In this document: piece by piece, positions 10,343-17,252 of the stretch
Numbering within the stretch: position 1 is the stretch's first letter
Layout: the number at the start of each line of letters is the position of its first letter
NCBI RefSeq assembly: GCF_030815855.1
Contig: NZ_JAUSXG010000001.1
Location: 1,054,001 to 1,118,000, forward strand
Length of the DNA: 64,000 nucleotides
DNA from: Variovorax paradoxus
GTDB lineage: Bacteria; Pseudomonadota; Gammaproteobacteria; Burkholderiales; Burkholderiaceae_C
Direction of reading: 5' to 3'
Position numbers and translations under genes: made by a program
The notes under the pieces: model-generated
Told to the model about the DNA's origin: nothing
Databases searched by the model: none
Seen by the model: only the letters and a program-made list of their open reading frames with translations

Positions 10343-11599
10343 ATGACGCTTTCCCGGCCGATCACCCAGGCGGCGAGCGCATTGCGCGACAAGTTTCGCG
10401 AAGTGCGGGCCGCCAGCCTGGCACTCGCCGCGCCGCTCTCCGCCGAAGACCAGTGCATCCAATCGATGCCTGATGCGAGCCCCACCAAATGGCATCTCGC
10501 GCACACGACGTGGTTCTTCGAGACCGTGCTGCTCCAGCCTCACGCCACGGGCTACCGGCCCTTCGACGTGCGTTTTCATTACCTCTTCAATTCGTACTAC
10601 GAGGCGTTGGGCCCGCGCCATCCGCGGCCGCAGCGCGGGCTGCTCACGCGCCCCTCGGTGGACGAAGTGCAGGCCTACCGCAGCCATGTCGACAAGGCGG
10701 TGCTGGCCTTGCTCGACGGCGAGATCGGCGACCAGGACTGGGCCGCCATCGAGCCCATCGTCACGCTGGGGCTGCATCACGAGCAGCAGCACCAGGAATT
10801 GCTGCTCACCGACATTCTTCATGCGTTGTCATGCAACCCGCTGCTGCCCGCCTACAAGCCGGCCGCTGGACCCGCGCTGCGGCTCGCCGCCGTGCCGCCG
10901 GCCATGCGATGGCTGCCGCAGCCCGGCGGCGTGGTCCAGGTAGGTCATGAAGGACTGCAGCACGGTTTTGCCTTCGACAACGAAACACCGCGCCACGCAG
11001 CGCTGCTGCAACCCTATGCCATTGCCGACAGGCTAGTGAATTGCGGCGACTATGCGCAGTTCATTGCCGATGGCGGCTACCGGCGGCCCGAGCTGTGGCT
11101 GTCCGACGGCTGGGCCGCGGTGCAGGCACAGGGCTGGCGGCATCCGGCCTATTGGCTGGCGGCGGACGATCCGCGACTGGGAGCCCAGCAGCAGCAGGGC
11201 GGCTGGCAGGTGTTCGGCCTGCATGGCGTGCGGCCGATGGAAGCCGATGCACCGGTGTCGCAACTGAGTTTCTACGAAGCCGCGGCGTACGCGGAATGGG
11301 CCGGCGCGCGGCTGCCCACCGAGTTCGAATGGGAGGCCGCGTTCGACGCGCCCGGCATCTCGCAGATGGCCGGCCATGTCTGGCAGTGGACGCGTTCCTC
11401 TTACGACCCGTACCCAGGGTTCAGGCCCATGCCCGGCATCGCGGCCGAATACAACGGCAAGTTCATGGTGGGTCAACTGGTGTTGCGCGGTGGCAGCGTG
11501 GCCACCCCGGCCGGGCATACGCGGCCCAGCTACCGCAACTTCTTTCCGCCGGCCGGGCGCTGGCAGTTCTCGGGGCTGAGGCTCGCGAAAGACGTCTGA
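10343..11599 (+). CDS. egtB: ergothioneine biosynthesis sulfoxide synthase EgtB
   Basis: This 418-residue non-haem iron enzyme forms the C-S bond between hercynine and a thiol (gamma-glutamylcysteine or cysteine). The N-terminal DinB-like domain carries the iron ligands: H51/H54 in TKWHLAHT and the H-x3-H-x-E motif H146-E152. The C-terminal FGE-sulfatase domain has FEWEAAF, GHVWQWTRSSYDPYPGF and the closing LRGGS...RNFFPP...GLRLAKD. The ATG at 10343 follows a GGAGA box. egtD begins 3 nt after the stop. No egtA, egtC or egtE neighbours are present, as is common in proteobacteria. Confidence 0.95.
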   Translation: MTLSRPITQAASALRDKFREVRAASLALAAPLSAEDQCIQSMPDASPTKWHLAHTTWFFETVLLQPHATGYRPFDVRFHYLFNSYYEALGPRHPRPQRGLLTRPSVDEVQAYRSHVDKAVLALLDGEIGDQDWAAIEPIVTLGLHHEQQHQELLLTDILHALSCNPLLPAYKPAAGPALRLAAVPPAMRWLPQPGGVVQVGHEGLQHGFAFDNETPRHAALLQPYAIADRLVNCGDYAQFIADGGYRRPELWLSDGWAAVQAQGWRHPAYWLAADDPRLGAQQQQGGWQVFGLHGVRPMEADAPVSQLSFYEAAAYAEWAGARLPTEFEWEAAFDAPGISQMAGHVWQWTRSSYDPYPGFRPMPGIAAEYNGKFMVGQLVLRGGSVATPAGHTRPSYRNFFPPAGRWQFSGLRLAKDV

Positions 11600-11602
11600 A
11601 TC

Positions 11603-12616
11603 ATGCGCAATCCAACATCGTCGTCCTCCTTCTCGTTCGCCGCCGCACAACCGCAGCGCCAACCCGAGGCGCCCGCTCCGGTCGCCGCCCGGTCGCCGCT
11701 CTCCGAATTCGGCCGTGAAATGCAGGCGGGTCTTGCGCGCAAGCCGCGCAGCATTTCACCCAAATTTTTCTACGACGCGGCAGGTTCGCAGCTGTTCGAC
11801 CGCATCTGCGAATTGCCTGAGTACTACCCCACGCGCACCGAGCTGCGCATCCTCGGCGAATGTGCCGGAGAGATCGCCGAGCAGATCGGTCCCGGCGCCG
11901 AGATCGTGGAGTTCGGTGCCGGCTCCCTGACCAAGGTGCGGCTGCTGCTGGATGCGCTCGAGGCGCCCAAGCGCTACCTGCCGATCGACATCTCGGGCGA
12001 GCATCTGGAGGCCGCCGCCGAGCGGCTGAAAGCCGACTACCCCCAACTCGTGGTGCAGCCGATTGCGGCGGACTACACGATGCCGCTGGTGCTGCCGGCG
12101 CCACTGCCCGGCGCAGGCAAGCGCGTAGGATTTTTCCCCGGCTCGACCATTGGAAATTTCGAGCCCGACGAGGCGCTGGCTTTTCTGCAGCTCGCGGCGC
12201 GGATGCTGCGCGGCGGCGGCTTGCTGATCGGCGTCGATCTGGTGAAGGAGCCAGCTCGCCTGCATTCGGCGTACAACGATGCGCAAGGCGTGACCGCGGC
12301 ATTCAACCTCAATCTTTTGCGGCGCGCAAACGCCGAGCTCGATGCGGATTTCGACCTTGATGGCTTTGCGCATGCGGCGTTCTACAACGCGCCGAAGCAG
12401 CGCATCGAGATGCACCTGGTGAGCCGCCGGGCCCAGACTGTTTCACTGGACGGTGAGCGGTTCGGGTTCGAGGAAGGGGAGACGATTCATACCGAGTACT
12501 CGCACAAGTTCACTGTGGATGGACTGCGGGCGCTGGCTGTGAAGGCGGGGTTTCGGCCTTTGGCGGTTTGGACGGATCCTGAGAGGTTGTTTAGTGTGCA
12601 TTGGTTGGGGGCTTGA
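11603..12616 (+). CDS. egtD: L-histidine N-alpha-methyltransferase EgtD
   Basis: This 337-residue SAM-dependent enzyme trimethylates histidine to hercynine, the substrate for EgtB. Features are SPKFFYDAAGSQLFDRICELPEYYPTR-type N-terminal family signatures, the SAM motif EFGAGSLTK (103-111), FFPGSTIGNF and the histidine-pocket segment around YNDAQGVTAAFNLNLL. About 30 residues at the N-terminus are low-complexity Ser/Pro/Ala and may be disordered. Only 3 nt separate it from egtB, so the two form a two-gene operon. The intergenic repeat that borders the IS110 pair begins just after its stop. Confidence 0.96.
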   Translation: MRNPTSSSSFSFAAAQPQRQPEAPAPVAARSPLSEFGREMQAGLARKPRSISPKFFYDAAGSQLFDRICELPEYYPTRTELRILGECAGEIAEQIGPGAEIVEFGAGSLTKVRLLLDALEAPKRYLPIDISGEHLEAAAERLKADYPQLVVQPIAADYTMPLVLPAPLPGAGKRVGFFPGSTIGNFEPDEALAFLQLAARMLRGGGLLIGVDLVKEPARLHSAYNDAQGVTAAFNLNLLRRANAELDADFDLDGFAHAAFYNAPKQRIEMHLVSRRAQTVSLDGERFGFEEGETIHTEYSHKFTVDGLRALAVKAGFRPLAVWTDPERLFSVHWLGA

Positions 12617-12638
12617 GTTTTGTTGGCTTAGTTTGTTT

Positions 12639-12904
12639 CCCGAGGCCGGGTCTCGCCCCGGCGGGCGACCTACTTTTCTTTGCTTCGCCAAAGAAACGTA
12701 GGCAAAAGAAAGGCGACCCCACTGTCTGCGACCCCTGCGCTTCGCTACGGGGCAACCTGCGGTGCTCGGGTTTCGCGGGGTCTCGCAGAACTCGCTTCGC
12801 TTGTATGGTTGAGGCGCTGGGGTGGAGGGACTCGTTGCGCATTCGGCCGCGGCAGCGGACCGACGGTTTTGAGATTTCTCCCGCCCCACCTTCCAACGTC
12901 GATT
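12639..12904. repeat. intergenic repeat, left arm of the large palindrome
   Basis: This is the gene-free DNA between egtD and the first IS110 copy. It recurs inverted at 15321-15585, identical except for a small cluster of differences at 12670-12674 (two substitutions and one extra T). It contains several stems: GCCGGG/CCCGGC around 12644-12660, and TTTCTTTG/CAAAGAAA (12675-12696) with a CTTCGC loop. The latter could also terminate egtBD transcription. No coding capacity is supported. It resembles intergenic repeats I recall from Comamonadaceae genomes, but I cannot confirm this here. Confidence 0.75.
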
Positions 12905-13018
12905 AGGAACTGAGCGGAGCTCCGTTTTTGGACGGTGCGACCGCCGATCTAGACGCAAGCAAACGTGGTCGGTGGGCTGCACCCCAGCTTGGCAAATTGT
13001 CCAACCGGAGGTGTCGTC
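12905..13018 (+). ncRNA. candidate IS110 bridge-RNA region / non-coding end, copy 1
   Basis: IS110-group elements carry a non-coding end that is transcribed as a bridge RNA pairing donor and target DNA (family knowledge). The only non-coding element DNA of useful length here is the segment upstream of the transposase. It contains the palindrome CGGAGCTCCG (about 12914-12925) followed by T5, and a C-rich segment before the ribosome-binding site. RNA boundaries and loops were not determined. Confidence 0.35.
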
Positions 13019-13984
13019 ATGCAAGAGCCAACCCTGTTTATCGGCGTGGATGTTTCCAAGGCCGAATTGGTCATTTCTCTGGGGTCTGGGCACCGGCCTC
13101 GCAGCGTGGTCAACAATGCCGCGGGCATTGCCGATTGGCTGCGGGAAGTGCCGCCCCATGCCCTGGTCGCCATGGAATCCACCGGGCGGTACCACGGTCT
13201 GTTGGCGCACCTTGCAAGCCAGGCTGGCCTGAAGGTGTTCGTGCTCAATGCACGCGACGTGCACTTCTACGCCCAAGCCTTGGGAATGCGGGCCAAGACA
13301 GATGGCGTTGACGCCCAGCTCATCGCTCGCTATCTGGCGGAACACCACGGTCATCTGCATCCCTGGCAGCCGGCCAGCGCAGTGCAGCAACGACTGCAAG
13401 ATCTGCTCACGCGCCGAGCGCAATTGGCGGCGCAGCGCTCGGCCTTCAAGCAGATCGTGACGGGTGTGGACGCCAGCGATATCGACACCGGCGAGTTGCA
13501 AAGGGCCTTCGATACCCTTCTGAAGGCAATGGATAGCAGGATGCAGGAGTTGGTTACCAGCGATCCGCGGCTGTCCGCTGGCTGCCAGAGATTGCTCACG
13601 ATCACCGGTGTAGGACCGCAGACCTCGGTGTTGCTGGCGACGCTGTTCAGTCGCTTCAACTTCGGCAATACCGATGCCTTGGTGGCCTATTGCGGACTCG
13701 ATCCAAGACCCAACGATTCGGGTGCCCGGCATGGGCGACGTCGCTTGAGCAAAAAGGGGCCGTCGCTGTTGCGCCGACAGATCTATCTGGTGGGCTTTGC
13801 TGCAAGTCGTAGCAAGGCGCTCAGGCCGTTGTATGAGGCCATTCGGGCCAAGGGCTTTGCAACCACTGCGGCCTTCATCATTCTCGGGCGCAAGCTGCTG
13901 CGCGTGGCGTTTGCTGTTTGGAAAGGTACGCAGTCGTTCGATCCGGCCCGGTTGATGCCGAAGAATGACTTGCAAAAAACATAG
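13019..13984 (+). CDS. IS110-family transposase, copy 1
   Basis: This 321-residue DEDD-type recombinase has an N-terminal RuvC-like domain with D11 (GVDVSKAE), E53 (AMESTGRYH) and D95/D98 (TDGVDAQL). A coiled middle region follows, then a C-terminal Tnp domain with the helix-hairpin-helix LLTITGVGPQTSVLLATL (192-209) and the likely catalytic serine S234 in PNDSG. The start is fixed by GGAGGT at 13007-13012, 6 nt upstream of the ATG; the in-frame opening at 12965 adds 18 non-conserved residues. The gene looks intact and therefore potentially active. Confidence 0.95.
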   Translation: MQEPTLFIGVDVSKAELVISLGSGHRPRSVVNNAAGIADWLREVPPHALVAMESTGRYHGLLAHLASQAGLKVFVLNARDVHFYAQALGMRAKTDGVDAQLIARYLAEHHGHLHPWQPASAVQQRLQDLLTRRAQLAAQRSAFKQIVTGVDASDIDTGELQRAFDTLLKAMDSRMQELVTSDPRLSAGCQRLLTITGVGPQTSVLLATLFSRFNFGNTDALVAYCGLDPRPNDSGARHGRRRLSKKGPSLLRRQIYLVGFAASRSKALRPLYEAIRAKGFATTAAFIILGRKLLRVAFAVWKGTQSFDPARLMPKNDLQKT

Positions 13985-14020
13985 AACCTCAGACAGCTGC
14001 GAGCCCTGATCCGCGAAACC

Positions 14021-14204
14021 CTGCGCTCCTCGGCGCATACAGAGGGGCTTGGAAACCGAACGGGCCTTTGCTTCGCTCGGCCACGAAGCCACCGCGGCGC
14101 TGCGCGCCGCGGTGGTTGGTATTGGGGCGGGCTGTTGGGCTTGGGGCCGAGCGAAGCGATGGCCTGCCCGCACCCACCCCTTCTGTATGCGCCGAGGAGC
14201 GCAG
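14021..14204. repeat. 184-bp MITE-like palindromic element between the IS copies
   Basis: Perfect 23-bp terminal inverted repeats lie at 14021-14043 and 14182-14204 (outer bases CTGCGCTCCTCGG). Internal pairs are GCTTCGCTCGGCC (14070-14082) with its complement at 14145-14157, and a 12-bp hairpin CCACCGCGGCGC-TGC-GCGCCGCGGTGG (14089-14115). It has no coding capacity. Its terminal repeats share the exact symmetry centre of the flanking IS pair. It could be a non-autonomous element or the core of a larger intergenic repeat into which the IS copies inserted. Confidence 0.65.
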
Positions 14205-14240
14205 ATGGAGGCGGGATCAGGGCCGCAGCTGTTTGAGGTT

Positions 14241-15206
14241 CTATGTTTTTTGCAAGTCATTCTTCGGCATCAACCGGGCCGGATCGAACGACTGCGTACC
14301 TTTCCAAACAGCAAACGCCACGCGCAGCAGCTTGCGCCCGAGAATGATGAAGGCCGCAGTGGTTGCAAAGCCCTTGGCCCGAATGGCCTCATACAACGGC
14401 CTGAGCGCCTTGCTACGACTTGCAGCAAAGCCCACCAGATAGATCTGTCGGCGCAACAGCGACGGCCCCTTTTTGCTCAAGCGACGTCGCCCATGCCGGG
14501 CACCCGAATCGTTGGGTCTTGGATCGAGTCCGCAATAGGCCACCAAGGCATCGGTATTGCCGAAGTTGAAGCGACTGAACAGCGTCGCCAGCAACACCGA
14601 GGTCTGCGGTCCTACACCGGTGATCGTGAGCAATCTCTGGCAGCCAGCGGACAGCCGCGGATCGCTGGTAACCAACTCCTGCATCCTGCTATCCATTGCC
14701 TTCAGAAGGGTATCGAAGGCCCTTTGCAACTCGCCGGTGTCGATATCGCTGGCGTCCACACCCGTCACGATCTGCTTGAAGGCCGAGCGCTGCGCCGCCA
14801 ATTGCGCTCGGCGCGTGAGCAGATCTTGCAGTCGTTGCTGCACTGCGCTGGCCGGCTGCCAGGGATGCAGATGACCGTGGTGTTCCGCCAGATAGCGAGC
14901 GATGAGCTGGGCGTCAACGCCATCTGTCTTGGCCCGCATTCCCAAGGCTTGGGCGTAGAAGTGCACGTCGCGTGCATTGAGCACGAACACCTTCAGGCCA
15001 GCCTGGCTTGCAAGGTGCGCCAACAGACCGTGGTACCGCCCGGTGGATTCCATGGCGACCAGGGCATGGGGCGGCACTTCCCGCAGCCAATCGGCAATGC
15101 CCGCGGCATTGTTGACCACGCTGCGAGGCCGGTGCCCAGACCCCAGAGAAATGACCAATTCGGCCTTGGAAACATCCACGCCGATAAACAGGGTTGGCTC
15201 TTGCAT
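14241..15206 (-). CDS. IS110-family transposase, copy 2
   Basis: This 321-residue protein is identical to copy 1 in every position, including the DEDD residues and the C-terminal PNDSG serine, and has the same ribosome-binding site. Complete identity suggests either very recent duplication or ongoing gene conversion between the palindrome arms. It is intact. Confidence 0.95.
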   Translation of the reverse strand: MQEPTLFIGVDVSKAELVISLGSGHRPRSVVNNAAGIADWLREVPPHALVAMESTGRYHGLLAHLASQAGLKVFVLNARDVHFYAQALGMRAKTDGVDAQLIARYLAEHHGHLHPWQPASAVQQRLQDLLTRRAQLAAQRSAFKQIVTGVDASDIDTGELQRAFDTLLKAMDSRMQELVTSDPRLSAGCQRLLTITGVGPQTSVLLATLFSRFNFGNTDALVAYCGLDPRPNDSGARHGRRRLSKKGPSLLRRQIYLVGFAASRSKALRPLYEAIRAKGFATTAAFIILGRKLLRVAFAVWKGTQSFDPARLMPKNDLQKT

Positions 15207-15320
15207 GACGACACCTCCGGTTGGACAATTTGCCAAGCTGGGGTGCAGCCCACCGACCACGTTTGCTTGCGTCTAGATCGGCGGTCGCACCGTCCAAAAA
15301 CGGAGCTCCGCTCAGTTCCT
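15207..15320 (-). ncRNA. candidate IS110 bridge-RNA region / non-coding end, copy 2
   Basis: This is the inverted duplicate of 12905-13018, with the same CGGAGCTCCG palindrome and T-tract. As the only substantial non-coding part of the element, it is the best place for a bridge RNA. No RNA structure was computed. Confidence 0.35.
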
Positions 15321-15585
15321 AATCGACGTTGGAAGGTGGGGCGGGAGAAATCTCAAAACCGTCGGTCCGCTGCCGCGGCCGAATGCGCAACGAGTCCCTC
15401 CACCCCAGCGCCTCAACCATACAAGCGAAGCGAGTTCTGCGAGACCCCGCGAAACCCGAGCACCGCAGGTTGCCCCGTAGCGAAGCGCAGGGGTCGCAGA
15501 CAGTGGGGTCGCCTTTCTTTTGCCTACGTTTCTTTGGCGAAGCAAAGAAAGTGAGTCGCCCGCCGGGGCGAGACCCGGCCTCGGG
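15321..15585. repeat. intergenic repeat, right arm of the large palindrome
   Basis: This is the inverted copy of 12639-12904, identical except near 15548-15555 where a small indel and two substitutions occur. It is gene-free; open frames here are shadows of the repeat. A weaker similarity continues outward for about 14 more bases on each side. The DUF427 gene promoter must lie in the last ~80 bp before 15669. Confidence 0.75.
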
Positions 15586-15668
15586 AAAGAAACAAAGCCC
15601 CCATCTCCAGGCAGAAAATCCGGTTCAAAAGCAAAGGGCACAATATCCCTTCCCTTGGAGAGCAAGAC

Positions 15669-15953
15669 ATGAAAGCAACCTGGAACGGCGTCACCATCGC
15701 CGAAAGCGACGACACCGTGCTCGTCGAAGGTAACCACTATTTCCCAGTGAGCGCGCTCAACCGCGACTACGTCACCTTCAGCAACCACAAGACCACCTGT
15801 CCCTGGAAGGGCACCGCCAGCTACTACTCGCTGCTGGTCAACGGCGAGCTCCACGCGGATGCCGCCTGGTACTACGCCGACCCGAAGCCCGAAGCCGAGG
15901 AAATCCGCGATCGCGTGGCGTTCTGGAAGGACGTGAAAGTCACCGCGTCGTGA
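15669..15953 (+). CDS. DUF427 domain protein
   Basis: This 94-residue single-domain protein of the DUF427 family is a small beta-rich cytoplasmic protein of unknown biochemical function. Conserved features are KATWNGVTIAESDDTVLVEGNHYFP near the N-terminus, the STTCPWKG-type motif (here KTTCPWKGTASYYSL), and AAWYYADPKPEAEEIRDRVAFW. GGAGAGCAAG upstream serves as ribosome-binding site. Its stop overlaps the GTG start of the next gene (GTGA, 15950-15953), so the two are probably translationally coupled. Confidence 0.93.
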   Translation: MKATWNGVTIAESDDTVLVEGNHYFPVSALNRDYVTFSNHKTTCPWKGTASYYSLLVNGELHADAAWYYADPKPEAEEIRDRVAFWKDVKVTAS

Positions 15954-16699
15954 CCACGGCCGCGTTCGCGCCCCCGTTCATTCAGCCCGCCGAACTACCG
16001 GCCGCGCTGCGCGAACAAGGCTATGCAGTGCTGAGCCCGCAGGGCGTGAGCGACTGGCTCGGCGTGCCGCTCGGCCAGCTCGAGGCGCTGCACGCCGACT
16101 GGAACGATCTTCCGCCCGACGAATACCTGAAGGACGGTGGCCGCTACCGCACGCGGCGCCACGCGTGCTTCACGGTGGCGGGTGAGGCGATTGCGCAGGT
16201 GCCGCATCGCGCGCACTGGCAGCCGGTCGAATACAACGCACTGCATGGCGGCATGCAGCGCTGGTTCGCGCCCATGCACGAGGCCACGGTGGCGCAGCCG
16301 GTGTGGCAGCGCCTGCTGCAACGCCTGGGCGAAGCGGCGAGCGGCATGCGCGGCACCACGGCGCAGCCGTGGTTCGTCGAGGCGCATCAGTTCCGCATCG
16401 ATACCGCGGGCGGCATCGGCCGGCCCACGCCCGAAGGCGCGCACCGCGACGGTGTCGACCTGGTGGCGGTCGCGCTGGTCGGACGCAGCGGCGTCAAGGG
16501 TGGCGAAACGCGCGTGTTCGAAGCCAACGGACGGCGCGGCGAACGCTTCACCATGACCGAGCCCTGGACGCTGCTGCTGCTCGACGACGCGCGCGTGATC
16601 CACGAATCCACGCCCATCCAGCCGCTCGAAGAAGGCGCCGCCGGCTGGCGCGACACCCTGGTCGTCACCTGCCGCGCTCAGGGTTTCCAGGGGGATTGA
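15950..16699 (+). CDS. 2-oxoglutarate/Fe(II)-dependent dioxygenase family protein
   Basis: This 249-residue protein has a plausible Fe(II) facial triad: H165-x-D167 (GAHRDGVDLV) and H218 (DARVIHES). It resembles the stand-alone 2OG-Fe dioxygenase family of small proteobacterial proteins. The substrate is unknown. The GTG start at 15950 overlaps the DUF427 stop by 4 nt. Pairing of DUF427 with this dioxygenase in one transcript suggests a joint role, which is inference. Confidence 0.8.
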   Translation: MTTAAFAPPFIQPAELPAALREQGYAVLSPQGVSDWLGVPLGQLEALHADWNDLPPDEYLKDGGRYRTRRHACFTVAGEAIAQVPHRAHWQPVEYNALHGGMQRWFAPMHEATVAQPVWQRLLQRLGEAASGMRGTTAQPWFVEAHQFRIDTAGGIGRPTPEGAHRDGVDLVAVALVGRSGVKGGETRVFEANGRRGERFTMTEPWTLLLLDDARVIHESTPIQPLEEGAAGWRDTLVVTCRAQGFQGD

Positions 16700-16808
16700 C
16701 CCCGCTGGCTTGAGTCCTACAGTCACGCCGCGGCCGAGGGGTTAAATTCGAGGCCCGGTTCGGTTGCGAGCCGCGCCTGTCCGCGAACGAATGAAAGTGA
16801 GGTCCGCC

Positions 16809-17252
16809 ATGTTCAATCACATCCTGGTTCCGATCGACGGCTCCGAAACTTCCATGCTCGCGGTCAGCAAGGCCAGCGGCCTGGCGCTGGCCTTCGGCAG
16901 CCGCATCACGTTGATTCACGTGATCGACAACTATCCCTTCATCGGCGTGGGCGCGGACTATGCGCTCGGCCAGAACGAATACCTGGCCGCGGCCACCGCG
17001 AGCGCGAATGCGGCGCTCGCGCGCGGCGTGGCCGCGCTCGCGGCCGAGGGCCTGCACAGCGACCAGCGCGTGATCGACGGCCACGTGGTGCACGAGGGCA
17101 TCGTCGACACTGCCATCGCCATCGCGGCCGACCTGATCGTGATGGGCTCCCACGGCCGCAGCGGCATCGAGAAGCTGCTGCTCGGAAGCGTGACGCAGCG
17201 CGTGCTGCAGGACGCGACCATGCCGGTGCTGGTGGTCAAGGGCGGGCTGTAA
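16809..17252 (+). CDS. universal stress protein (UspA family)
   Basis: This is a 147-residue single-domain Usp. The N-terminal strand MFNHILVPIDGSE and the ATP-binding signature VMGSHGRSGIEKLLLGSVTQ place it in the ATP-binding branch. It is cytoplasmic and usually induced by starvation or oxidative stress (family knowledge). The ATG at 16809 follows GTGAGG; upstream codons in frame have no family match. The last 17 bases overlap the convergent pseudouridine synthase gene. Confidence 0.94.
   Translation: MFNHILVPIDGSETSMLAVSKASGLALAFGSRITLIHVIDNYPFIGVGADYALGQNEYLAAATASANAALARGVAALAAEGLHSDQRVIDGHVVHEGIVDTAIAIAADLIVMGSHGRSGIEKLLLGSVTQRVLQDATMPVLVVKGGL

Follow-up and report, generated by a model that had tools for sequence, protein, structure and literature searches.

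Structure of the locus

The window, a stretch of 64,000 nucleotides from the Variovorax paradoxus genome, contains two IS110 copies in one palindrome between two genes (Table 1). The left neighbour is presumably egtD, a name assumed from the type of sequence and not from a family search, and the right neighbour is a gene that we take to belong to the DUF427 family. The arms were compared base by base around a common centre (paired coordinates sum to 28225). Positions 12675-13991 paired with 14234-15550 over 1317 nt without a single mismatch, which is far beyond chance and confirmed the near-perfect palindrome of two inverted IS110 copies proposed in the first-pass annotation. Both transposase frames were the same, as had also been claimed. 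The first differences between the arms appeared at 13992/14233 and 14002/14223 on the inner side and at 12674/15551 on the outer side; as an inverted repeat (I1) the arms extend over 12675-14001 and 14224-15550. The outer arms 12625-12676 and 15548-15599 paired at 92%, and the limits first given to the structure (12639..15585) have to be moved outward to 12625-15599. The inner segment, initially described as MITE ends, is the centre of a composite palindromic repeat and belongs neither to the IS nor to a MITE; the MITE reading was discarded because the same segment forms the repeat centre in IS-free copies. A search of 11500-17000 against Rfam gave no match up to an E-value of 1.

Table 1. Window coordinates of the two IS110 copies, the repeat that holds them and the neighbouring genes
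Feature	Position	Strand	Basis
egtD-like methyltransferase gene (name assumed), left neighbour	11603..12616	+	ORF; matches in relatives
Left outer arm of palindromic repeat, B type	12625..12799	+	Repeat comparison
IS110 copy 1, 1190 bp CT to CT	12800..13989	+	Ends from empty copies
Left-end non-coding region, predicted bridge RNA	12802..13018	+	Sequence and target-loop structure common to 5 related IS
Predicted left target guide CGTTGCGCA, copy 1	12833..12841	+	
Predicted right target guide GTTTTGAG, copy 1	12866..12873	+	
IS110 transposase/recombinase, 321 aa	13019..13984	+	ORF, Pfam, IS621 alignment
Repeat centre (B inner half, spacer, A inner half)	13990..14235	.	Comparison with other repeat copies
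IS110 copy 2, identical to copy 1	14236..15425	-	
Second transposase gene	14241..15206	-	ORF, Pfam
Predicted right target guide, copy 2	15352..15359	-	Mirror of copy 1, identical sequence
Predicted left target guide, copy 2	15384..15392	-	Mirror of copy 1, identical sequence
Right outer arm part with left-arm (B) sequence, putative copied tract	15426..15550	.	
Outermost right arm, still A type	15551..15599	.	
DUF427-like gene (name assumed), right neighbour	15669..15953	+	ORF; orthologs downstream of egtD

The IS110 element

The ends of the IS were determined from IS-free copies of the flanks elsewhere in the genome, in which the pieces that end at 12801 and start at 13988 have 2 bp, CT, in common; the element therefore measures 1190 bp from CT to CT, and each copy has the CT core on both sides. 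Since the flanks are joined at a single CT in the IS-free copies, the flanking repeats are not part of the IS, and its ends are ordinary. The genome contained four full-length copies, two in the window, one at 4261815, and one at 1725050. The first three were identical over 1190 bp, and the fourth differed at 3 positions; the ends of the copies outside the window were the same as here. A fifth genome match was distant and partial (28%). All four full-length copies occupied the same site of the same repeat, and 11 sites with the 17-nt target were still empty.

The transposases matched the Pfam domains DEDD_Tnp_IS110 and Transposase_20, and the recombinase aligned with IS621 (E 3e-27) and ISCro4 (1e-28). 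The five catalytic residues listed for IS621 in the accessible parts of PMC11208160 and PMC11208158 were conserved as D11, E53, D95, D98, and S234, read by eye from the IS621 alignment; the two domains and the D-E-D-D plus serine set are those of the IS110 group. The 217 nt from the left CT core to the ATG are non-coding, as at the left end of IS110-group elements, and 5 bp separate the stop codon from the right IS end. Judged from these sequence features, the IS is a member of the IS110 group of the IS110 family. A sigma70-like hexamer pair was rebuilt at the joined right and left ends in five of five IS (this one and four relatives), with 8-9 of 12 consensus bases and a spacing of 16-17, as a raw count of matching bases.

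The host repeat

The repeat is a palindrome of about 600 bp with the order outer arm, target, inner half, spacer, inner half, target, and outer arm. Each arm carries the IS110 target CTCGCTTCG/CT/CARAC. The genome has seven long copies, including the one in the window, and four short copies of about 105 bp. One long copy (L029) has only one site; of the two-site copies outside the window, three are without IS and two have one IS. Two of the four short copies (L034 and L035) were without the exact CGCTCARAC target.

The arms are mostly of two types, B (outer sequence ...TTTCGCGGGGTCTCGCAG, inner sequence CAGCTGCGAGCCC) and A (outer sequence ...TCCGGCGGGGGTCCGCAG, inner sequence CAGCTGCGGCCC); the left arm of copy L027 is a mosaic. 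Matches to the repeat, some of them weak, were found in 57 of 61 genomes of the genus including this one, in a scan that scored 9 candidates per genome, so that copy numbers are lower bounds. The exact 28-nt target was present in at least 120 stretches; 79 of the 80 loci listed were titled Variovorax, and one was a MAG named Gammaproteobacteria. By comparison of its IS-free and IS-bearing copies, the palindrome is older than the IS.

Like REP, BIME, and REPIN elements, the repeat consists of multi-copy, inverted pairs of a unit in an intergenic position, the latter established from the egtD locus only; many overlapping reading frames were found beside the other copies in this genome. It differs from them in that its unit measures about 105 bp and is part of a composite of 600 bp. 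A single Y1_Tnp (PF01797) gene, L234 (G000:C1:4029703-4030038), was found in the genome. No repeat was detected in the locus fetched around it (best E 0.5), and a linked RAYT as mobiliser of the repeat was rejected because the repeat is absent from this one locus. In the titles and abstract openings listed by literature searches, and in the accessible part of PMC2817692, there was no description of this Variovorax repeat or of a doubly filled palindrome. A different IS110 (31% aa identity) was observed between two arms of the same palindromic repeat in another genome (L062 of G033, positions 859-2801); the locus of a second copy of that IS (L043) gave no repeat match.

Predicted bridge RNA and target guides

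Four relatives of the IS, L200 (70% aa identity), L041 (59%), L201 (54%), and L189 (51%), had the same IS ends and left-end layout and other targets; the matched frames of L200 and L201 contain one TGA each. Candidate guides were chosen after the targets were seen. The right guide and target were UUUGAG/CTCAAA here, UCGCGAG/CTCGCGA in L041, CACGCGAG/CTGGCGTG with one mismatch in L200, UAUGAG/CTCATA in L201, and GUCUGAG/CTCAGAC in L189. The left guide, compared without L189 because its left flank is missing, fitted with 6.5 of 7 in L200, 5.5 here, and 5 in both L041 and L201. At this locus, an A of the left guide opposite the core T mispairs, as does one inner position.

The cognate pairing was the single best of 24 assignments for the four IS with complete target and both guides, and the single best of 120 for the five right guides. 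Individual guides were less specific: the right guide here ties with the L041 target, the right guide of L189 ties with the L201 target, and the left guide of L041 fits the L200 target better than its own (6.0 vs. 5). Agreement between guides and targets of the kind expected in the IS110 group was thus found for the set of IS only. The guide score at this locus was 9.5 of 13 (5.5/7 left, 4/6 right); the left-arm target, in which G at 13992 makes a G.U pair with the guide, scored 9.0. With the palindrome excluded, 22 of 6260 CT sites in the window were equal or better, and the corresponding numbers for L041, L200, and L201 were 7, 1, and 5. Guides by themselves are weak predictors, and the site could not be picked out with those of this IS only.

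In the consensus fold of the five left ends, the columns that hold the guides are unpaired and flanked by a stem and a hairpin, resembling a target-binding loop. A second (donor) loop was less clear, and the putative donor part of the left end showed up as a region conserved across the related IS. Two-sided changes in at least one sequence occurred at 14 of 54 pairs, with a small covariation term (-0.96). Folded alone, the left end was not clearly more stable than shuffled sequences (z -1.1; 24 of 200 shuffles fold as well), and in its minimum-energy structure the two guide strands are partly paired with each other. The IS has the anatomy of a bridge-RNA element, as far as left-end layout and guides allow one to say, and is probably RNA-guided.

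Insertion of IS110 elements in REP sequences is established (PMC1525189, PMC11208160, PMC11208158, PMC8450116, each in its available part). The E. coli element IS621, of the IS110 family, uses a bridge RNA and inserts in REP elements, according to the available text of PMC11208160 and PMC11208158. The same portions of those papers provide the points of likeness, namely the five catalytic residues, the CT core, a non-coding left end with target guides, a promoter-like sequence rebuilt at the circle junction (here from the joined ends), and a palindromic repeat as target. The differences are the size of the target (REP of ~30-37 bp vs. a composite palindrome of ~600 bp), the occupation of both arms, and the A in the guide opposite the core T. 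All listed copies of ISPpu9, ISPpu10, ISPa11, and ISRm19 (7/7, 7/7, 6/6, and 4/4) were reported in a species-specific palindromic repeat, in the available parts of PMC1525189 and PMC8450116; these give a 2-bp direct repeat for ISPpu9 and ISPpu10 and describe ISPa11 without the usual direct repeats. These IS110-family elements resemble the present IS in that every copy sits in a palindromic repeat; host, repeat, and guide differ, and a doubly filled palindrome is not among the cases described in those parts.

The orthologous egtD-DUF427 loci

Matches to egtD were found in 60 of 61 genomes of the genus including this one, and 30 egtD loci were read, one of which was that of the genome itself (L204). 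A DUF427 gene could be placed downstream of egtD in 18 of the 29 loci of relatives, with an identity of 90-98% in 17 and 87% in one. The gap between the two genes, about 3.05 kb in the window, was short in five of the 18 loci (71, 107, 154, 184, and 222 bp), intermediate in one (391 bp), and long in 12 (654, 689, 700, 715, 742, 743, 772, 773, 781, 916, 923, and 971 bp). Eleven of the 12 long-gap loci were aligned and contained the palindrome with both arms; the twelfth, L225, had a facing pair of sites. In L208, whose EgtD is 92.9% identical, both sites were empty, the left arm was B, and the right arm was A. The search for repeat arms without an IS, suggested as a check in the first-pass annotation, thus succeeded both at orthologous egtD loci and among the copies of the same genome.

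The orientation of the centre was tested for 14 palindromes downstream of egtD by its best alignment. The sense was that of the window in L205 (one half only), L208, L215, and L222, and reversed in L210, L212, L213, and L232; the calls for L232 (170 vs. 120 bits) and L222 (156 vs. 87 bits) were less clear. For the remaining six, only end units or one half matched. The occurrence of IS-free orthologs in both orientations fits the predicted tendency of the structure to invert. In the aligned loci the repeat starts directly behind egtD, so that a single ancestral element that inverted would explain the orthologous palindromes more simply than repeated insertion.

Left-arm sequence in the right outer arm

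The inner and outermost sequences of the right arm are of A type, and 15426-15550 is of B type. The right outer arm was of A type in six of six other copies of the same genome (L026-L031, with the B arm turned left) and in the ortholog L208. Arm identity was compared outward from the site in a set of 59 arm pairs (stricter site definition, duplicates kept) and over 120 bp in a set of 60 (duplicates and pairs less than 140 bp from the locus end dropped); the single-site copy L029 was excluded. Among these pairs, which are neither random nor independent, most of them having been taken from among the loci listed for the exact 28-nt match, the arms in the window were identical over 125 bp, followed by 29 and 25, with a median of 16. 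Over 120 bp, the pair in the window also ranked first (117/121), followed by that of L217 (112/120). Because 15426-15550 is of left-arm type and the 125-bp identity stands out, we infer that copying from left to right homogenised the arms.

B-like sequence in both outer arms was also present, without IS, in five of the 11 aligned orthologs (L217-L220, L232). Arms of B type on both sides are therefore not unique to the window, and only the length of their identity is; for the same reason, arms were probably copied or exchanged without an IS as well. The B arm shares TTTCTTTGGCGAAGCAAAGAAA, a small hairpin, exactly with three of the six A arms of the same genome (L026, L028, and L030). The 12 bp next to the IS are common to both inner halves, with one mismatch (13992/14233).

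Origin of the doubly occupied palindrome

We favour, with moderate confidence, guided insertion of the IS in both arms of an old palindrome, followed by copying between the arms. The bridge RNA transcribed from the IS left end would recognise a short site around the CT core in each arm, and the predicted RNA together with the recombinase would use the CTCGCTTCGCTCAAAC site, by analogy with IS621. As the repeat is a palindrome and its sites face each other, two such insertions, presumably independent, would give two IS copies tail to tail. Once both IS were in place, their perfect identity would let one arm act as template for the other, and identical facing copies may favour copying into the flank. 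Copying would have continued beyond the IS through 125 bp of the right outer arm and stopped within 22 nt that can be common to both arm types. If four insertions fall by chance on 15 sites, of which 12 belong to two-site palindromes, one or more palindromes will be hit twice in 33% of cases, and the second insertion needs no special cause. The empty sites support the model of the first-pass annotation in which each arm of a palindromic intergenic repeat offered the same target and both were hit.

Two insertions are favoured over a single one in the left arm that was later transferred to the right arm. In that case one copying event inside the palindrome, by template switch or gene conversion, would have carried the IS and 125 bp of the left outer arm across and doubled the IS without a second transposition. 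This less probable scenario, which deserves tentative consideration, covers the second IS and the B-type right outer arm with one event, and it offers the 12 bp shared by the inner halves and the TTTCTTTGGCGAAGCAAAGAAA hairpin as candidate switch points. The two IS are identical to each other and also to the copy at 4261815, so that their identity fits either scenario. The repeat centre occurs in both orientations in orthologs. Template switching at short inverted repeats in yeast homogenises arms and inverts spacers, according to the available part of PMC8604942; arms made identical and a centre in both orientations are found here too, whereas the tract covers 125 bp or more, perhaps 1.3 kb. 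A difficulty of the single-insertion scenario is that the copied tract would have to be 1.3 kb long and to stop no more than 2-12 bp from the inner IS end. Moreover, two other palindromes have the IS in the A arm alone, so A-arm insertion happens without such copying. It is possible, though we hold it only tentatively, that the palindrome acts as a copying device, by which an IS entering one arm is written into the other intramolecularly with its flanks; if true, the IS would double without transposition, and flanking sequence would travel along.

An error of assembly or polishing, in which the right arm was built from left-arm reads, could be suspected from the identity of the 1.3-kb arms and the four copies of the IS, but is improbable: the genome is one contig of 5,951,079 bases listed as 100% complete, the arms differ in their inner and outermost flanks, which agree with the A and B types seen at other loci, and the right inner flank is of A type, like that of the two IS-bearing arms elsewhere in the genome. 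Inverted duplication of an IS-bearing unit, raised in the first-pass annotation and suggested by the long identical arms, is very improbable as the source of the palindrome, which predates the IS, occurs without it in the same genome and in orthologs, and has matches in 57 of 61 genomes of the genus; a related process nevertheless accounts for the 125 bp of left-arm sequence in the right outer arm.

The locus holds a known kind of element in an unusually clear case. The IS, probably guided by RNA, uses a repeat that is spread through the genus, and a single genome offers this repeat empty, filled in one arm, and filled in both; in this natural, readable example, target choice, arm choice, and palindrome-driven arm copying can be tested at one locus. 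The locus also warns that the flanks of an inverted IS pair may be identical without being ancestral.

Distribution of the IS

Relatives of the transposase were present in six of 399 genomes of the family at E<=1e-60 and in seven of 399 genomes of the order at E<=1e-40, this genome included in both counts. In 60 other genomes, 36 of them of the genus, the best transposase match was 59% identical. Among the best 120 of 3249 rows of a protein search, a relative named Variovorax paradoxus matched at 73%. No transposase relatives were found in the plasmid collection (E<=1e-60) or in viral contigs. The element is thus rare, and the repeat that it uses is common (matches in 57 of 61 genomes of the genus). 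In another genus, the 51% identical IS of L189 (G207) was located beside sequence about 70-80% related to the repeat, and two 72-bp units in tandem, similar to the inner half of the repeat, lie to the right of that IS.
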